A DNA stretch of 64,000 nucleotides from Bacteroidota bacterium. GTDB lineage: Bacteria > Bacteroidota > Bacteroidia > AKYH767-A > JAHEYN01. The stretch is from positions 1-64,000 of the forward strand of contig JAHEYN010000004.1 of assembly GCA_023251555.1 (NCBI GenBank), written 5' to 3'. The notes beneath the pieces were generated by a model that worked only from the letters and a program-made list of their open reading frames with translations, was not told the DNA's origin and searched no databases. The first letter of the stretch is position 1. Each line of letters opens with the position of its first letter. Shown piece by piece: positions 46,067 to 55,134 of this stretch. The position numbers were made by a program, and so were the translations under genes.

Positions 46067-47443
46067 ATGGGATCTCCTCCTGAAATACCTACGGGTTATA
46101 CGGTTTTTGATATCATTTTGTCAGTGTTTTATTCCCTTGTGCTCATCATAGTTGCGACTTCAATCAGGAACGCGAATGTTGATAAACACCCGCATTTCAG
46201 GTATATTGTTGGCGGGCTCGTCGTGAAAATAATCGGCGCTGCCTCCCTTTGCAGTGTTTATCTTTTTTACTATGGGGGAGGGGACACGCTTGGTTATTTT
46301 TACAATGGAAATGTTCTTGCCCGTCTTTTTTTTAAGGAACCCCTGATTTTTTTTCGTATTGTCTTTCTCAGGGATTGCACCAGGGAGACATTTTCCTATT
46401 TCACACATGAAACCGGGGAGCCTTACCACTGGTTCTTCAGTGACCCTCTTACATATTTCATCCCCCGGTTTATATCCGTGTTTGAAATAATCTCGTTTGA
46501 AAATTACCTGGCCACTTCTATCCTGATAACTGCCATTTCATATACCGGACTCTGGAAATTATATACTGTTTTTGTGGAGGAATTTCCTGAGCTGAAAAAA
46601 GAAATGGCTATTGCAGTATTATTTGTTCCATCTGTTTTTTTCTGGGGCTCCGGTATTTTAAAAGACCCTATTACAATATCTGCTGTGGGGTGGTATACTT
46701 ATGCATTTTATCATTTTTTTGTTAAAAAAAGATTTCGTCTTTCATTTATCATATACCTGGTGGTTAGCTCATACATTATGCTTGCTATCAAACCGTATAT
46801 TTTCTACGCGCTTATTCCCGGGTCGCTGGTTTGGTCATTGTTTGATTTTCTTAAAAGAGTAAAAGGCGGATTTATGAAAGTGGCTGTTTTTCCGATGTTC
46901 CTTGCCGTTTTCTTTGTGATAGGATATTTTGTTTTAACAAAGCTTGGGAGTGATAAAGGCAATTATTCCCTGTCATATCTCATGGAGTACTCTACGCTCG
47001 TTAATATAGATCTGAAAAAAGTAAATTTCGGAGCGAGTAGTTTTGACCTGGGAGATTATGACCCGACTATTTCAGGAATGCTCTCCAAAGCGCCCCAGGC
47101 AATTAATGCGGCCTTGTTCCGGCCCTACCTTTGGGAGGTGAAAAATGTCATTATGCTTATATCTGCGCTGGAAAATACTGTGATACTGTTTCTTGTTATA
47201 CAGCTCATCATTAAAATGAAATTCCTCAAAACGATGGTATTTATTGCAGAGAACCCTCTTCAGTTATTCTGTGTGTTTTTTGTTCTTCTTTTCTCTTTCT
47301 CTGTGGGAGTTACCACTTCCAACTTTGGCAGCCTGGTTCGGTACAAAATTCCTGCCATGCCATTTTTTATTGCTTCTATTTTTATTATGAGGTATTACAA
47401 TCAGAAGGAACGGGAAGCTGCCATGATGGGAACAAAAAAGTGA
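46067..47443 (+). CDS. Polytopic membrane protein (candidate Wzy/EpsG-like polymerase or GT-C)
   Basis: 458 aa, about 10 TM segments, GGGDTLGYFYNG and FWGSGILKDPITI; located in a glycan operon. Confidence 0.55.
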   Translation: MGSPPEIPTGYTVFDIILSVFYSLVLIIVATSIRNANVDKHPHFRYIVGGLVVKIIGAASLCSVYLFYYGGGDTLGYFYNGNVLARLFFKEPLIFFRIVFLRDCTRETFSYFTHETGEPYHWFFSDPLTYFIPRFISVFEIISFENYLATSILITAISYTGLWKLYTVFVEEFPELKKEMAIAVLFVPSVFFWGSGILKDPITISAVGWYTYAFYHFFVKKRFRLSFIIYLVVSSYIMLAIKPYIFYALIPGSLVWSLFDFLKRVKGGFMKVAVFPMFLAVFFVIGYFVLTKLGSDKGNYSLSYLMEYSTLVNIDLKKVNFGASSFDLGDYDPTISGMLSKAPQAINAALFRPYLWEVKNVIMLISALENTVILFLVIQLIIKMKFLKTMVFIAENPLQLFCVFFVLLFSFSVGVTTSNFGSLVRYKIPAMPFFIASIFIMRYYNQKEREAAMMGTKK

Positions 47444-47444
47444 T

Positions 47445-48587
47445 TTATAGTTCCTGCTCCTTTTTTACAATATAACTGAACTTTTCTTTCAGGCGCAGGA
47501 AGTAGCTTTCGAAATAATGATAGGATAGCCACCCTATCACCATGGAAAGTATAAAAGCAAGAATGGGGAGCCATAGAAAAATTTCAAGGAGCGTTTCTTT
47601 TACTCCTGCATATTTTAGGATGTAGACTGCCGTCAGGATACCTATAAAATGAAGGCAATACAGGCTGTATGTGTATGTACCCAGTTTTGTGATTATTCTC
47701 CACCTTCCCACCTTGAAAAAGGAATTATCAGAATAGGTCTGTTCAAGAATGATGAACGCAAAAAATACAGACAGTACAATCCTCTCAAAAACAAATGATG
47801 TCATATTTTCCCGGAAAATCAGGTACCGGAAATAAAGCAGGACCGCTCCTGCCAGGTATAAACAGACGATGGTTTTCCGTTTCATGTTTTTAAAATAGCT
47901 TCTGAATGAATCCTTTCCTATGGAAAGATAAGCGCACATTCCGCCAATACCCATATCCGATATGACACTCATGGTGTGAAAGTCCAGTATCCTGTATGCA
48001 TAGGTATGACAGGCCCTGAAGATAACCGACGAAAGAATCAGCCCCGCAAAAAATTTCATATAGTGGCGGGAAGGCAGGTATGCAAGTATAAAGGGCCAGA
48101 CAAAATAAAACTGCTCTTCGATTCCCACTGACCATAAGGCGCCCAGAATTGAAGAATCAGGAAAGTCATTTGCAATATTGTTGAAGTTGGGAAGAAAAAA
48201 AAGAAAATAGGAAAGCTGTGCGGTTTCAGAAGGCACTCCTCCCATGAGCAGTTTTATCCTTGGAAAAATATAGAAGCCAAAGATTACACAGAAAAAATAA
48301 AGCGGCCAAATCCGCAATGCCCGTCTTATATAAAATTTCACAAAGTCAATTTTCCCGTTCATCATTTTTTCAGATAAGAGGAGGTAAGTGATGAGGAACC
48401 CCGACAGCACAAAGAAACAGTTTACTCCAAGATCCCCGTTGAGGGCTATTTTGTAAAAGAATTTATAAACAGGATTCTGCTCCATCCCGGGATCTGAAGT
48501 GTAGAAAACATGATAAAAAAAGATTGCTAAAAATGAAAAGAACCTCAGCCCGTCAAGGTTTTCAAAATATAAGTTTCTTTTTATCAT
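47445..48587 (-). CDS. Acyltransferase family 3 (OafA/YrhL-like)
   Basis: NLDGLRFFSFLAIFFYHVF, GDLGVNCFFVLSGFLITYLLL, RRALRIWPLYF, SVGIEEQFYFVWPF. Confidence 0.92.
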   Translation of the reverse strand: MIKRNLYFENLDGLRFFSFLAIFFYHVFYTSDPGMEQNPVYKFFYKIALNGDLGVNCFFVLSGFLITYLLLSEKMMNGKIDFVKFYIRRALRIWPLYFFCVIFGFYIFPRIKLLMGGVPSETAQLSYFLFFLPNFNNIANDFPDSSILGALWSVGIEEQFYFVWPFILAYLPSRHYMKFFAGLILSSVIFRACHTYAYRILDFHTMSVISDMGIGGMCAYLSIGKDSFRSYFKNMKRKTIVCLYLAGAVLLYFRYLIFRENMTSFVFERIVLSVFFAFIILEQTYSDNSFFKVGRWRIITKLGTYTYSLYCLHFIGILTAVYILKYAGVKETLLEIFLWLPILAFILSMVIGWLSYHYFESYFLRLKEKFSYIVKKEQEL

Positions 48588-49801
48588 AGTACATCTTTGT
48601 AGAGGTCATAATAGGCTGCGACACCTTTCCTGATATCGTAGTAATCTTCTGCATAAGCCCTCAGTCTTTGTTTATCTGCAGGGTTGTTTTTAAACTCCTT
48701 AAGAACATTCGTGTATTGCTCCCCGCTCAGGGATTCCAGCAGGTAGCCCCCCCGGGGGTATTTTTCTGCCAGGTAGTCGAGATCTCCTATGCCTTTTCCA
48801 GAAATAAAGGGCAGTCCGCATGCCCAGTATTCCCCGAGTTTTGTGGGGCTGCGCCCTATTGATGAAAAGCGGTGGTCATAAAAAATAAGGCCAAGGTCTC
48901 CTGCCATAAGATAACTGGAAACCCCGGTGAAAGGAACCCCGGCAATCCTGATCTTTTCGGGAGGGAGGTTATAAGGCGCAATAAGTTTCATCACTGTTTC
49001 CTGCTCAGCCTGGGTTAAAAACAGCAGCACGGAATTTTCATTAATTTTTTCAAGTTGTGTTCTGAAGACTTCGCAAACTACGTCTGTCCTGTAATTGCCT
49101 CCCACGGAACCGCTGTATACAAGCACAACAGCCGATTCGGGGATGTTAAGCTTCGATCTTACCCGGTTTCTCTCTCCCCTGTCAAACGGCCTGAAAATAT
49201 CAAAATCCACGCAGGTAGGGATCACGGCGATTTTGTCTTCCTCTTTCAGCTTTTTGCTTACGATAAATTCTTTGCCCGCATGTGTGAGAGACACTGCCCT
49301 GTCGGATTCACGGAAAAATGCCCGCTCGAGGTGTTTGAAATATCTGTAGACCGGAATATACAGAGGATTGTTCCACAGACCGCTCTCTCTCTTTTCGTCG
49401 GCCCACCAGCCTCTCATGTCAAAAATGAATTTCGACCCGAATCGCTGTTTACATTTTCTGCCGAGTAAAGCAGGTATATATCCCCTGCAGTGAACAATGT
49501 CAAAATGTTTTTTCCTGTAGAGATCTTTGATGAGACTCCATCCTCTCCGAAGGTCGTTAAGTGTGGATAATACCGGCGGCTTTTTTGTATATGGCAGCGG
49601 ATGCCAGCGGATGTCATACCCGGAAATAAATGATTCAACTATCCCCTGGCTGCTTTTGTAAGTACCGGGTTTCTCATAGCTAACAATGTCAAAGCCGGTA
49701 TTTTCCCGGCTGAGCAGCCTGAGGTAGGCAAGTACCTGCGACTGGCCTAGGGGATCGGTCATCCCGTCGTATGAAATATATAATATTTTTTTTGAAGACA
49801 T
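48584..49801 (-). CDS. Glycosyltransferase (GT-B, family 4-like)
   Basis: KKILYISYDGMTDPLGQSQVLAYLRLLS, FIFDMRGWWADE, SPTKLGEYWACGLPFISG. Start at MSSKKILYIS. Confidence 0.87.
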   Translation of the reverse strand: MSSKKILYISYDGMTDPLGQSQVLAYLRLLSRENTGFDIVSYEKPGTYKSSQGIVESFISGYDIRWHPLPYTKKPPVLSTLNDLRRGWSLIKDLYRKKHFDIVHCRGYIPALLGRKCKQRFGSKFIFDMRGWWADEKRESGLWNNPLYIPVYRYFKHLERAFFRESDRAVSLTHAGKEFIVSKKLKEEDKIAVIPTCVDFDIFRPFDRGERNRVRSKLNIPESAVVLVYSGSVGGNYRTDVVCEVFRTQLEKINENSVLLFLTQAEQETVMKLIAPYNLPPEKIRIAGVPFTGVSSYLMAGDLGLIFYDHRFSSIGRSPTKLGEYWACGLPFISGKGIGDLDYLAEKYPRGGYLLESLSGEQYTNVLKEFKNNPADKQRLRAYAEDYYDIRKGVAAYYDLYKDVL

Positions 49802-49829
49802 GGAGGGCTGGCTGTGTTGTCCGTCAGGA

Positions 49830-50819
49830 TTAAAAAGAAGAAATCCGGTATTCATCCCTCATCCAGCTGATGAATTCTTCCAGTCCTTCCCGCAAGGGTT
49901 TCAGGGGCTGGTAGTTAAGAAGCCTTGAAGCTTTCGATATATCCGCATAAGTCAGTTCCACATCCCCGGCCTGCTCCGGCAGGCAGGTGATATTTTTTTG
50001 TTTCCCGGTGAGTTCGTAGAGCATTTCTACCAGGTCTTTCAGTTTTACCGGTTTATTGTTGCCGATATTGATGATTTCATAAGCATTGTTGTTTTTCATC
50101 AGAAAATCAACAGCCCCAAGGATACCGTTTACAATATCTCCCACAAAAGTATAATCCCTTGCAGTTTCCCCTTTACCGTATAGCGTGATGGGTTTGTTTT
50201 CGGACATCAGTCTCACGAATTTATGTATAGCGAGATCCGGCCGCTGGCGCGGACCGTAAACAGTAAAAAAGCGAAGGTTCAGTACATCAATCCTATAAAG
50301 GTGATGATAAGTGTGTGTGAGCAGTTCGCAGGATTTCTTTGTGAACGCATAGGGGGAGATGGGGTGATCTACATTGTCATCTTCGCCGAAAGGAGTTTTT
50401 TTGTTGTTCCCGTAAATAGAGGAAGAAGATCCGAAAACAAGTTTTCGGATTCCCCTGTCTTTCATCAGTTCGAGGATATTTAATGTCCCCGTGATATTGG
50501 AACGGAGATAGGCTTCCGGGTTCTTAATGGACGGAAGAACCCCCGCCTTTGCTGCGAGGTGAATAACTACGTTATAATTATCCCGCAGATTTTCCGTCCC
50601 GTTTTCTTCCGACAGATCTGTTTCAACAAATCGGAACATGCTGTTTTGCATACTTGCAGAGAGGTTCCGGAGTTTTATTTTTTTATCGTAAAAAGGGTCG
50701 AAATTGTCAACCCCCGTCACCCTGTGCCCTTCTGCAAGCAGTTTTTCGCAGAGGTGAGACCCTATAAACCCTGCACATCCTGTGAGCAATACGTGCAGCT
50801 TATTATTTGATACATTCAT
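49830..50819 (-). CDS. NAD-dependent epimerase (UDP-glucuronate 4-epimerase-like)
   Basis: LLTGCAGFIGSHLCEKLLAEGHRVTGVDNFDPFYD, SPYAFTKKSCE, LRFFTVYGPRQRPDLAIHKF. Confidence 0.9.
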   Translation of the reverse strand: MNVSNNKLHVLLTGCAGFIGSHLCEKLLAEGHRVTGVDNFDPFYDKKIKLRNLSASMQNSMFRFVETDLSEENGTENLRDNYNVVIHLAAKAGVLPSIKNPEAYLRSNITGTLNILELMKDRGIRKLVFGSSSSIYGNNKKTPFGEDDNVDHPISPYAFTKKSCELLTHTYHHLYRIDVLNLRFFTVYGPRQRPDLAIHKFVRLMSENKPITLYGKGETARDYTFVGDIVNGILGAVDFLMKNNNAYEIINIGNNKPVKLKDLVEMLYELTGKQKNITCLPEQAGDVELTYADISKASRLLNYQPLKPLREGLEEFISWMRDEYRISSF

Positions 50820-51579
50820 AGTAAAGCCAGTTGTCCTTTGATCGGATCATCTCTTCTTCTGAGGTGATTGTCTTTCCTGTAAGCATGGAATATACGTTAA
50901 TTTTTCCGAACCCCGCCTCCCTGAGCTGCCGGCATTGAACCTCCGGCCGGATGAAATAATGCAGGGCATTGTTTCCGGCATCTCCGTCATAAAAGGTGCA
51001 GTAGCCAGCGCTTTCTGCTTCTTTCCGGCTTTGCTTATTGATGCTGTATATCTTTACAAGACGTTTTATTTCGCGCAATAATCCTATTGGGCTGAGGGAA
51101 AGGCGGAAGCGGAAATACTGCCCTATGATGTTCAGGTTATGCGAAGAAAACAGTATGATGCCTCCCGGCCTTGCAACTCTTTTCATTTCCGAAAGTGCCA
51201 GGAGGCGGTCTTCATGGCTCAGGGTGTCGAGGCCGTTAAAGCTAAACAGCACAATATCAAAAGAATCGCCCGGGAACTCTTTCATATTCCGTGCGTCTCC
51301 TTGCTGCAGAATGATACCGGGGATATCTGCAAATCTTTTTTTACAGGCATCAATCATGGATTTCGAAAAATCAATTCCCGTGTATGAAGCTGTAAGGGGT
51401 GCAAAATAGCGGGTGGTGCGCCCTGCGCCAATCCCTATATCAAGCATAACAGGTTGTTTCATAGCTGTTATCTTTTTCAGGAACATGTTTTCCGGTGCTT
51501 CCAGATAGTTGAGGGAGGCATAGTACCTTACCGCTTCCGGCGATTCATAAAATTCCCTGTGGCTCATGTTCTTTTCCAC
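50803..51579 (-). CDS. Class I SAM-dependent methyltransferase
   Basis: VMLDIGIGAGRTTRYFAPLTASYTGIDFSKSMI, FDIVLFSFNGLDTLSHEDRLLALSEMKRVARPGGIILFSSHN. Confidence 0.87.
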   Translation of the reverse strand: MEKNMSHREFYESPEAVRYYASLNYLEAPENMFLKKITAMKQPVMLDIGIGAGRTTRYFAPLTASYTGIDFSKSMIDACKKRFADIPGIILQQGDARNMKEFPGDSFDIVLFSFNGLDTLSHEDRLLALSEMKRVARPGGIILFSSHNLNIIGQYFRFRLSLSPIGLLREIKRLVKIYSINKQSRKEAESAGYCTFYDGDAGNNALHYFIRPEVQCRQLREAGFGKINVYSMLTGKTITSEEEMIRSKDNWLYYECIK

Positions 51580-52310
51580 CCGCTAAGTATATTCTTTGAT
51601 TTATAGATTAACCCCAGGATGAGCGGAATGTAATCACTTTCTTCCACCATCACTCCTCCCAACTCGTCTTTGAAGTTATTGATCTGCCGGAGTTCCCTGT
51701 TGGTTGTTTCTTTCGCATACCCCCCCACATCGTATAATCTTACTCCTGATTTTTTTAAGATCACCATGTCATGGTAATGCAGCAGGCGGTTAGCTCTTCC
51801 CGTAAGGCTCCGCCTCCCGGGATCCTGCTCTTTCCTGAAGAGGGATGCCGATTGCAGGAGCCGGGCTCTTTTCCCCTGAGGGTCCAGTATATAGGAATGC
51901 ATGACGAGGTCTTCCTTTCCTGCCGATGCCTTTGTAATGAGAAAACACGATTTGTCTCTGAAGTATATTTTTTTTCTGATGGGGTACAGTTTTTTTGTTT
52001 CAGCAAAACGGTTGAAGAACGAGATAAATCTGTCGGGGTCATTTTCTGAGCTGCATACAACGCCATCTCTCTCCGCCCTGCGGATTTCATAACGGGTTTC
52101 CTCCGGGAAGTTATTAAGGAGTGTTTGTTCATCGGCTTTATCAAGCGCAATGATTTTTGTGTGGAATGGCTGTCGGTGGAATCCCGGCAAATCTTTATTC
52201 AGGGAACACTGCCTGTATATGTTCAGGCCGAACATGTCTCCCGGACGGGGTTTGTCATAAAACCATTTCTCTTTCCTGAACCATCCGATGGAGATATCCA
52301 GCATAGACAA
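51564..52310 (-). CDS. FemAB/GNAT-like protein in glycan operon
   Basis: NFPEETRYEIRRAERDGVVCSSENDPDRFISFFNRFAETKKL is a typical FemAB/GNAT-like segment. Confidence 0.55.
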   Translation of the reverse strand: MSMLDISIGWFRKEKWFYDKPRPGDMFGLNIYRQCSLNKDLPGFHRQPFHTKIIALDKADEQTLLNNFPEETRYEIRRAERDGVVCSSENDPDRFISFFNRFAETKKLYPIRKKIYFRDKSCFLITKASAGKEDLVMHSYILDPQGKRARLLQSASLFRKEQDPGRRSLTGRANRLLHYHDMVILKKSGVRLYDVGGYAKETTNRELRQINNFKDELGGVMVEESDYIPLILGLIYKSKNILSGWKRT

Positions 52311-52314
52311 AGCC

Positions 52315-54045
52315 TTATGCAGGTATGGGTGATTTGAGTTTCTGCATGCTTGAGTGCCTGTGTTTAATTCCCACCCGGACGATGTTCAGAAAAAAGAAGA
52401 TCCACGCAAAGTTTGAAAGAAAACGGGTAAATATATGTATGCTATGGAGGCTGCGGCCGGGATAAATGTTAATCGCGCTGTAGTCCAGTTTCGTTTTGTC
52501 GAAGTAATAACTCCATGTGTTTTCATCAATCCATGCTGTGCCTTCATAAGCTTTAATAATGAGGGCAGGATTGTTTATCAGTTCAGCTGTGCTTGGGCGG
52601 GTGCTTACAAGCTCCATCAGGTTGGGTTCTTTGTTGGTGTCGAAAAAATGCCAGGTATTGTTGTAGTTCACTTCTGATGCAATGTGATTCTGGAGGAATA
52701 CTGTTCTCGTGATATATCCCTTTCGTTGCAGGGCTTCCTGAAGCACAATGGATTGCTGTGCGGGAGTCCCCTTGTGTTTTCTCATGATCTGGTCAGGATT
52801 GGTAATGTCGGCGAAACCGTCAATAATTAATTTATCAATCATGTATGCGATATAGTCGTTGGACATATTCCATTCGGCGGGCGCGGCATAGAAGCAATCT
52901 TTTATCACTTCGTGAAGCAGGTTGGCATACTGCTCGCTGATGCTGTCAGTATTAATCTCCCTGGTTGCAGCCATGCTGTCGGTGTACAGTATCAGATGGT
53001 GTATGGATTTAAGCCTGTTAAGCGCCGGGTTATACCGTTCGTGGAAATGTGTATCCCGGGGCTCATCCTTGGTTTTGATTATCCATTGTATGGAGGAAAG
53101 GGATAATAATACTAGAAATAAAAACAATGTTATACCCTGATTCCTCCTGAACAACTTGAATTTTTTGATGTTAAGCACCTTCGTTGTGTCAAGCTGGTTA
53201 AAATAAATAGCTCTGCTGCCCCAGCTGATATTGGCAAACGAAAGGAGGAAAGCTGCCTGTTGTCCGATATAACAGAAAAATCTATTTACAGAGGTTATAT
53301 TTGCAGAAGGATATACAGGTTCGTAAATTTTATAACTGAAGGGATAAATCCCAATGTTCTTGAGAAAGTTAAACTGGTTGACAAAATTGGCGCGAAAAAA
53401 AGCTGCATAGCCTTGAGGCGCCGGCTGCTTTGTGAAGCCTGTGAATATTCTGCATACATACCTGAAAAATTTTGCAACGGAAAAATTTTGCTCCAGTTTA
53501 ATGTCAAGAATAAGAATGCCGTTTTTTGTCAGCAGTCTTTTAATCGTATTGAAAAATATCGCAGGTTCATTCGCAGAGGTCAGTACATCTCCTATATAAA
53601 TGATATTGAAAGATTGTTCCGGTGATTTTTTCAGAATTTCTCCTAAGGAGAGAAAAGAAATATTTTCATTCCTGCTTCCGGGTGCCGGAGGATCCTGTCC
53701 CGGAAACAAAACTCCTGTGTATTGATATCCACTTTCAATGGCAATACTGATAAGGCGGTTATCAAGGCAGCCGAAGTCAAGAAATGCCCCTGATTGTTTG
53801 GGCTTGGGAAGAAAGCGGGAAATAGCCTCGAAATCAGGATGAGTTTCCGTTGTTGTTTTATCACTGGGAGGAAAAGCCTCGGGAGGAGAAGGAAATAAAT
53901 AAATGAGGCCGCAGTTGGTGCATGCAACGTAGTGAAATTTTTCTTCGTCCCTTTTTTCGGGGTTTGTCTTAACGGGGTTGTACTGGAGACATCCGCAGAA
54001 AAGACACTGGGCGGAATGAGTTTGATTCCTGTCAGTTTCTTCCAT
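52315..54045 (-). CDS. Fusion: zinc-ribbon + methyltransferase-like (degenerate) + TM + transglutaminase-like domain + TM
   Basis: CLFCG...CTNCGLIYLFPSPPE; GAFLDFGCLDNRLISIAIESGYQYTGV; TM FLFLVLLSLSSIQWII; transglutaminase-like VLQEALQRKGYITRTVFLQNHIASEVNYNNTWHFFDTNKE; C-terminal TM. Confidence 0.6.
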   Translation of the reverse strand: MEETDRNQTHSAQCLFCGCLQYNPVKTNPEKRDEEKFHYVACTNCGLIYLFPSPPEAFPPSDKTTTETHPDFEAISRFLPKPKQSGAFLDFGCLDNRLISIAIESGYQYTGVLFPGQDPPAPGSRNENISFLSLGEILKKSPEQSFNIIYIGDVLTSANEPAIFFNTIKRLLTKNGILILDIKLEQNFSVAKFFRYVCRIFTGFTKQPAPQGYAAFFRANFVNQFNFLKNIGIYPFSYKIYEPVYPSANITSVNRFFCYIGQQAAFLLSFANISWGSRAIYFNQLDTTKVLNIKKFKLFRRNQGITLFLFLVLLSLSSIQWIIKTKDEPRDTHFHERYNPALNRLKSIHHLILYTDSMAATREINTDSISEQYANLLHEVIKDCFYAAPAEWNMSNDYIAYMIDKLIIDGFADITNPDQIMRKHKGTPAQQSIVLQEALQRKGYITRTVFLQNHIASEVNYNNTWHFFDTNKEPNLMELVSTRPSTAELINNPALIIKAYEGTAWIDENTWSYYFDKTKLDYSAINIYPGRSLHSIHIFTRFLSNFAWIFFFLNIVRVGIKHRHSSMQKLKSPIPA

Positions 54046-55105
54046 CGTAAATCCTGTAGAGTTTATCGAGGTAATTTATGCTGGTATATTCTTTTACGAT
54101 GCTTTCTGACCGCCTGATTAGCATGGAGTTCAGTTCTTTGTCAGTATGCATTTGTGTAATCTTGTCCGCAAGCTCTTTATAATTATTTACATTGAAATAA
54201 GCCACCCCGGTTTTGCCGGTTTCCCTGAGTGATTCAATATCTGATACCAGGCATGGTATACCTGCGGCCATGGCTTCGATCAGGCTTATTGCCATTCCTT
54301 CAGAGGTAGAAGTCATCAGGAACAGATCCTTATCATTGAGAAATGACCATATGTTATTGACTACCCCATGAAGTGTTACTTTCGACTGCAGCCCGTTAAG
54401 CAGGATGATGGACTCCAGGTTGCCTCGTTCCTTCCCCTCCCCGGCAATGTGTAGGTGGTAATTATTATCTTCGAGCAGGGTCATAGCCATCAGCGCCAGT
54501 TTGTAATTTTTTTCTGCCTTAAGATTTCCCACGCAGGCTATATGGTACATACCACCTTCATGCAGTTCCTTTTTCTTAAAAAACTCGTCAGGTACGAAGT
54601 TAGGAATTATATAATAATTTTCAGAAATAGCGAGTTTCTGCCTGATATTTTTAGCTACTGTTTCAGAAACAAAAATGCTTATATGTTTTTTTTTATAAGT
54701 AATAAAGTCGAGGATGTGCTGCTTCCTGTTGTAATAGGGGTTGAGTTTGCTGTATTCCGGGCAATGGTAGGTGGAAACCAGTCGCGTATCTGAGAAAAGC
54801 ACTGCCAGCCTGCTTACAAGTGTGGAATATACAAGGTGCGAATGGATAAGTGAAGCATTGTGCTCTTTAACCAGGCGTCTGAGTTTCCATATTGCTTTTA
54901 TCCATGATAAGGGGTTCTTGTAATGAAAATTGAGACGGTACACCGGCGTATTTGCAATCTCTGTTGCCAGTGTATCCGGGCCATGAAGAATCACGACTAT
55001 GTTATTGTAACGCTCTTTGTCAATATAGTTAATGGTTTTAACCAGCAGTTTTTCTGCTCCCCCGAGGCACAGGGAATCTATTACATGGATGATTGTGGTT
55101 TTCAC
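54032..55105 (-). CDS. Glycosyltransferase family 4
   Basis: HVIDSLCLGGAEKLLVKTINYI, TSTSEGMAISLIEAMAAGIPCLVSDI. GTG start at 55105 preferred, because the longer ORF starts inside the -7 promoter element. Confidence 0.88.
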   Translation of the reverse strand: MKTTIIHVIDSLCLGGAEKLLVKTINYIDKERYNNIVVILHGPDTLATEIANTPVYRLNFHYKNPLSWIKAIWKLRRLVKEHNASLIHSHLVYSTLVSRLAVLFSDTRLVSTYHCPEYSKLNPYYNRKQHILDFITYKKKHISIFVSETVAKNIRQKLAISENYYIIPNFVPDEFFKKKELHEGGMYHIACVGNLKAEKNYKLALMAMTLLEDNNYHLHIAGEGKERGNLESIILLNGLQSKVTLHGVVNNIWSFLNDKDLFLMTSTSEGMAISLIEAMAAGIPCLVSDIESLRETGKTGVAYFNVNNYKELADKITQMHTDKELNSMLIRRSESIVKEYTSINYLDKLYRIYDGRN

Positions 55106-55126
55106 AAAATGCCGTAGATGGCGCTG

Positions 55127-55134
55127 CAAATGTA
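55127..55134 (-). promoter_or_regulatory. Bacteroidota -7 element TACATTTG for the minus-strand glycan operon
   Basis: CAAATGTA on plus strand, about 22 nt upstream of the proposed GTG start. No perfect -33 TTG at N19 (ATTAAG instead). Confidence 0.55.

Follow-up and report, generated by a model that had tools for sequence, protein, structure and literature searches.

A role limited to binding has been proposed for inactive transglutaminases (PMC3482391). In Rad4/XPC and in the N-terminal inactive transglutaminases of polymorphic toxins, the fold serves binding, or is proposed to do so, without catalysis (PMC3482391). RloB of Pseudomonas is a pseudo-transglutaminase of the inner membrane that is predicted to be exposed to the periplasm, and RloB mutations rescue biofilm and other defects (PMC12239564). 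In proteins of this kind the inactive transglutaminase is fused to seven transmembrane (TM) helices, the gene belongs to an ATP-grasp/retropepsin operon, and RloB mutants alter biofilm- and envelope-related traits (PMC12239564, PMC12096838). Here we analysed a 64,000-nt stretch of a Bacteroidota genome (positions 1 to 64,000 of contig JAHEYN010000004.1, hereafter the window) and concentrated on one minus-strand gene (54045..52315), the 576-amino-acid (aa) product of which has a methyltransferase-like part with a zinc ribbon and, after a TM helix, a transglutaminase-like part that is followed by a second TM helix. A first-pass annotation had proposed this arrangement, and all the motifs and helices are indeed present in a single open reading frame. 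It had named no strand; the plus-strand reading of 52315-54045 is riddled with stops. By computation, both halves could be given a parentage and both were found to have lost catalytic residues; the frame, the zinc-ribbon Cys residues and the two TM helices are intact, and the gene lies in an exopolysaccharide (EPS) cluster. The protein differs from RloB by having two TM helices, which flank the domain, instead of seven, by its methyltransferase-like part and by its EPS cluster, and there is no Pfam match between the two; the Rad4/XPC and toxin domains resemble its C-half but are not membrane-EPS proteins and have other partners. The earlier statement that the architecture is not a described family holds for the fusion but not for its components: both halves have stand-alone relatives in EPS clusters, and membrane-bound periplasmic pseudo-transglutaminases are already known (RloB, PMC12239564). 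What is new is the fused double pseudoenzyme.

The C-half carries the segment GTPAQQ...NHIASEV...FFDTN between hydrophobic helices at about aa 305-323 and 542-560. Its relatives are spread over the Bacteroidia (14 of 388 genomes of the class at E <= 1e-3, and 31 of the 87 genomes of one order; loci L015-L019) and are stand-alone TM-domain-TM proteins with open frames of ~240-314 aa (~270 aa). One of them, G000:C50, is a 272-aa paralogue from the same genome (35% identity to the C-half, E 4e-39), which reads AACSQQ...GHF...WHFFDTN and has an intact triad. In an alignment of 38 relatives, this paralogue included, the Cys, His and Asp columns are each invariant (38/38); the fused protein has Pro428 in the Cys column and keeps the His and the Asp. 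The missing nucleophile reported by the first-pass annotation is thereby verified and its replacement identified. That annotation had also considered that homologues with an intact triad aligned elsewhere would undo its reading; the relatives do have an intact triad, but in the same columns, which proves degeneracy instead. We could reject a different location of the Cys within a family that is intact in other respects, since every relative has its Cys in the Pro column.

Searches of Pfam, NCBIfam and PDB sequences produced no usable match for the C-half or for the intact paralogue, so that homology was taken from the family profile and from fold searches. Transglut_core was reached by 6 of 15 family members (best 1.9e-4) and DUF553 by 5, with modest E-values, and the family profile matched a clear Transglut_core protein (E 1.5e-10) with Cys, His and Asp in register. 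The AlphaFold model of the C-half (pLDDT 74, pTM 0.68) gave, as top Foldseek matches, PNGase, the BDI_1141 protease, Rad4/XPC, vasohibin and arylamine N-acetyltransferases; menin was also listed, and all the others are of the transglutaminase-like or papain-like kind. The set is coherent, with probabilities up to 1.0 and E-values of 0.005-0.1, none being below 0.001. Together, the domain matches, the profile match in register and the folds found with the model identify the family as transglutaminase-like, as had been predicted for the C-half. Within the transglutaminase-like superfamily (PF01841 and kin) the C-half has the fold and lacks the Cys-His-Asp triad; judged from the alignment and the model, it is a fold member and not one of the superfamily's enzymes. 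Sampling of the whole phylum with the transglutaminase profile returned only members already known, which makes the family sporadic. In one locus (L030/L038, G371:C130:6625-7373) the transglutaminase-like gene is split in two frames, by a frameshift or an assembly error.

The N-half contains the motifs CLFC (aa 14-17), CTNC (aa 42-45) and LDFGCLDNRLI, and matches Methyltransf_23 of Pfam (PF13489) with an E-value of 7.3e-6, slightly short of the gathering score. When 378 genomes of the class were searched with a profile, its relatives proved to form a distinct stand-alone subfamily of about 300 aa (298-311 aa) with full-length matches (loci L050, L051 and L053-L057). The alignment shows that the four Cys of the putative zinc-binding ribbon are common to the fused protein and its relatives. 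Motif I is GCGxGxF in the relatives (the second Gly is variable in L053 and L054) and GCLDNRL in the fused protein. The acidic residue after motif I, a Glu (in VE[FY]N) in all relatives, is Leu113; the EH pair, present in all relatives except L057, is Thr156-Ser157; and a His that the relatives conserve near aa 215 has gone too. Of the features of class I S-adenosylmethionine (SAM) methyltransferases, the Rossmann fold and the zinc-ribbon motif are thus present, and motif I and the acidic residue are absent. The AlphaFold model, which is of low depth and reaches confidence in the Rossmann core alone (pLDDT ~54-79), matches SAM methyltransferases of the PDB (Foldseek, E 2e-7); since the rows of its alignment were already methyltransferases, this match is supportive but not independent. 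Scanning viral_contigs with the methyltransferase profile revealed no relatives. The earlier suggestion of a cytosolic SAM-binding part was rejected, the motifs needed for SAM being those that are lost. With relatives that keep the motifs in one half and the triad in the other, the description of both catalytic cores as degenerate is borne out.

Near-complete relatives of either half are all stand-alone, and no second fused copy was found among the relatives examined. Literature searches for a protein joining a methyltransferase to a transglutaminase gave no relevant result. Within the reach of the searches, neither the fusion nor the loss of both active sites was found outside this genome. 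The stand-alone methyltransferases end where the fused protein continues into its second half, which indicates an end-to-end fusion. Each half resembles a stand-alone family. The transglutaminase-like one (L009, L015-L019 and L083-L111), often in EPS clusters, resembles the C-half (~23-35% identity, two TM helices, His and Asp) but has the catalytic Cys in all its members (~240-310 aa), none of which is fused. The zinc-ribbon methyltransferases, several of them in EPS clusters and with neighbours similar to those of the fused gene in several loci, share the zinc ribbon, the Rossmann core and the C-terminal part of the N-half, but retain, with few exceptions, the catalytic motifs that it has lost. 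In a maximum-likelihood tree the C-half is sister to the paralogue of its own genome (support 97/81), with a branch of 2.33 versus 1.29; on this tree it is a fast-evolving sister of that paralogue.

Because both active sites look destroyed in an intact frame, a scaffold or partner role is preferred to that of a catalyst, and catalysis by known mechanisms in either half is very unlikely. The reading that we favour, with about an even chance of being right, is that of an inner-membrane protein that serves EPS assembly as a scaffold or partner, without catalysis, and that was born of an end-to-end fusion. Its parents would be two genes of EPS clusters, one for a zinc-ribbon class I methyltransferase and the other a duplicate of the gene for a transglutaminase-like enzyme anchored in the membrane. 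By the positive-inside rule (KKFKLFRR before the first TM helix, a basic tail after the second), the methyltransferase-like part is predicted to be cytosolic and the transglutaminase-like part periplasmic. The former, with its zinc ribbon, may dock to putative partners, the sugar-modifying enzymes of the cluster; the latter may bind the same amide- or amine-bearing glycan or peptide as its presumably active relatives, or else the paralogue itself, and neither cut nor join what it binds, and the protein would thereby couple or regulate polymer modification and export. Counted in favour of this is that three separate methyltransferase motifs are lost from a half that still has all four Cys of the zinc ribbon, and so are the triad invariant in the relatives, the fold matches, the sister position to the paralogue, the synteny of the clusters, the open frame and the precedents of RloB and of the proposed binding role. 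Of the two roles put forward earlier, that of a scaffold is plausible, and that of a sensor found no specific support.

Some observations weigh against a maintained scaffold. Only one genome, assembled as a draft of 55 contigs, is known to have the fusion and the double loss; the N-half model has low confidence outside the Rossmann core; and retention of family-conserved positions is the lowest in both halves (53% for the C-half, lowest of 39; 50% for the N-half, lowest of 8), which also fits a decay that started late. The gene could also be in decay, both halves having become dispensable after duplication and fusion because the intact paralogue suffices, with no stop met yet. The low retention, the long branch, the intact-triad paralogue and the absence of AsnB from the cluster of the window, though AsnB lies near most transglutaminase-like genes elsewhere, all fit this account, which is possible but rather unlikely. 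However, the frame is open over 576 codons. In a simulation of neutral mutation, 30% residue replacement brought 7.5 stops on average (0 of 500 trials stop-free) and 20% brought about 5 (~0.01 chance of an open frame), against 28% open frames at 5% replacement. Since stops would be expected under neutral change, a long-decayed pseudogene is disfavoured: long-standing decay is unlikely, and a recent loss of constraint could also fit. The losses include positions around both active sites, but the zinc-ribbon Cys, the TM helices, several fold residues and the W-FFDT core are kept, and the gene overlaps tightly with its neighbour in a same-strand run.

The retained triad His and Asp could also mean that catalysis has moved, to a relocated Cys (the unique Cys384, in the RFYHG motif, where relatives mostly have Arg) or to an atypical SAM pocket, in one half or in both. 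This is quite improbable: degradation has reached the adjacent RFYHG motif as well as the Cys-Ser-Gln-Gln motif, the N-half lacks three independent methyltransferase motifs and no relative shows an intermediate. A specific regulator of the paralogue, forming a hetero-oligomer with the active copy or competing for its substrate, would agree with the closest relative of the C-half being the Cys-intact protein of the same genome; but the paralogue and the fused gene lie on separate contigs, and such a role would have no use for the methyltransferase part, so we hold it improbable. As to an assembly or sequencing artefact merging two genes, its occurrence in one genome only is what speaks for it, and yet the gene is in-frame throughout with no frameshift required, its GC content and GC at third codon positions (GC3) equal those of the upstream glycosyltransferase gene, and the degenerate residues are far from the junction, in both halves. 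The Cys to Pro change would need two base changes, so that one sequencing error should not account for it. An artefact can thus be regarded as highly improbable.

As listed in Table 1, the fused gene is closely packed with its neighbours on the same strand, in the order GT4, fused gene, FemAB-like gene, methyltransferase, epimerase, GT4. Its start overlaps the 3' end of the GT4 gene upstream, and its stop is closely followed by the FemAB-like gene. The FemAB-like protein has weak FemAB matches only; a homologue (29%) adjoins AsnB in L118. The 458-aa membrane protein has no Pfam or NCBIfam match; homologues with 29-43% identity recur in related EPS clusters and often directly adjoin the transglutaminase-like gene.

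Table 1. Coordinates of the fused gene, its parts and the surrounding genes in the window
Feature	Position	Strand	Remarks
Fused gene: pseudo-methyltransferase / TM / pseudo-transglutaminase / TM	52315..54045	-	In-frame, 576 aa; ATG at 54045, stop 52317-52315
Zinc ribbon CxxC...CxxC	53911..54006	-	Cys 14, 17, 42 and 45, 4/4 kept; alignment with relatives
Rossmann core	53497..53796	-	aa 84-183; motif I GCLDNRL for GCGxGxF, E113 to L, E156-H157 to T-S
C-terminal part of methyltransferase subfamily	53197..53496	-	aa 184-283; usual end of stand-alone relatives within
TM helix 1	53077..53133	-	aa 305-323; KKFKLFRR just before (N-terminus predicted inside)
Transglutaminase-like domain	52546..53040	-	aa 336-500; predicted periplasmic
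Pro428 at catalytic Cys position	52762..52764	-	Codon CCC
His454	52684..52686	-	Catalytic-site residue kept
Asp469	52639..52641	-	Catalytic-site residue kept
TM helix 2	52366..52422	-	aa 542-560; then basic tail (predicted inside)
GT4 glycosyltransferase	54035..55129	-	Upstream; 3' end overlaps start of fused gene
FemAB-like gene	51567..52310	-	Downstream; start ~10 nt from stop of fused gene
Remaining same-strand genes	48587..51579	-	Methyltransferase (50806), NAD-dependent epimerase (49833), GT4 (48587)
Acyltransferase-like membrane protein	47448-48587	-	Name rests on the sequence; no library match
Polytopic membrane protein	46067..47440	+	458 aa
Further GT4	44828	+	Strand opposite fused gene, like the 458-aa membrane protein gene

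Of the 29 loci of one family (L083-L111), 17 have the stand-alone transglutaminase-like gene directly next to one for an AsnB-type amidotransferase; a homologue of the 458-aa membrane protein is present within 1.5 kb in 7 of these loci. For the AsnB proteins the best score is that with TIGR03108, which stays under the cut-off; they exceed the cut-off of asn_synth_AEB. L115, L118 and L119 each have a stand-alone zinc-ribbon methyltransferase gene in the company of GT4, epimerase and AsnB genes; in L119 a homologue of the upstream GT4 also precedes the methyltransferase gene, and one cluster (L045/L119) combines the methyltransferase, the transglutaminase-like gene, AsnB, the membrane protein and GT4. 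The cluster of the fused gene follows the same pattern with both genes joined and AsnB absent from the window. The paralogue stands by itself amid lipoprotein and outer-membrane genes (L039, G000:C50:45500-65000), ~6 kb from an AsnB gene that belongs to a flippase-AsnB-methyltransferase group; this is possibly a second EPS locus of the same genome. The intact-triad family, which has no name in Pfam and NCBIfam, is apparently undescribed, and is AsnB-adjacent in most of L083-L111, L015, L044, L045 and L047. Literature searches for a transglutaminase/asparagine-synthase link to EPS gave nothing relevant.

To conclude, the fused gene is a clean natural case in which two unrelated enzymes were joined and catalysis was lost in both with the frame intact, and the live version of its transglutaminase-like half in the same genome provides a built-in control. 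A further and tentative reading, to which we give a small chance, is that of a stably kept double pseudoenzyme spanning the inner membrane, the dead cytosolic and periplasmic halves of which together relay or coordinate information on the polymer between the two compartments; it would be a coupling factor in the modification and export of EPS, with no catalytic role of its own. The gene also exposes a membrane-anchored transglutaminase-like family in the EPS clusters of Bacteroidota, often beside an AsnB-type amidotransferase, and this pairing suggests that polymer maturation may include an unrecognised amide-forming and amide-using step.
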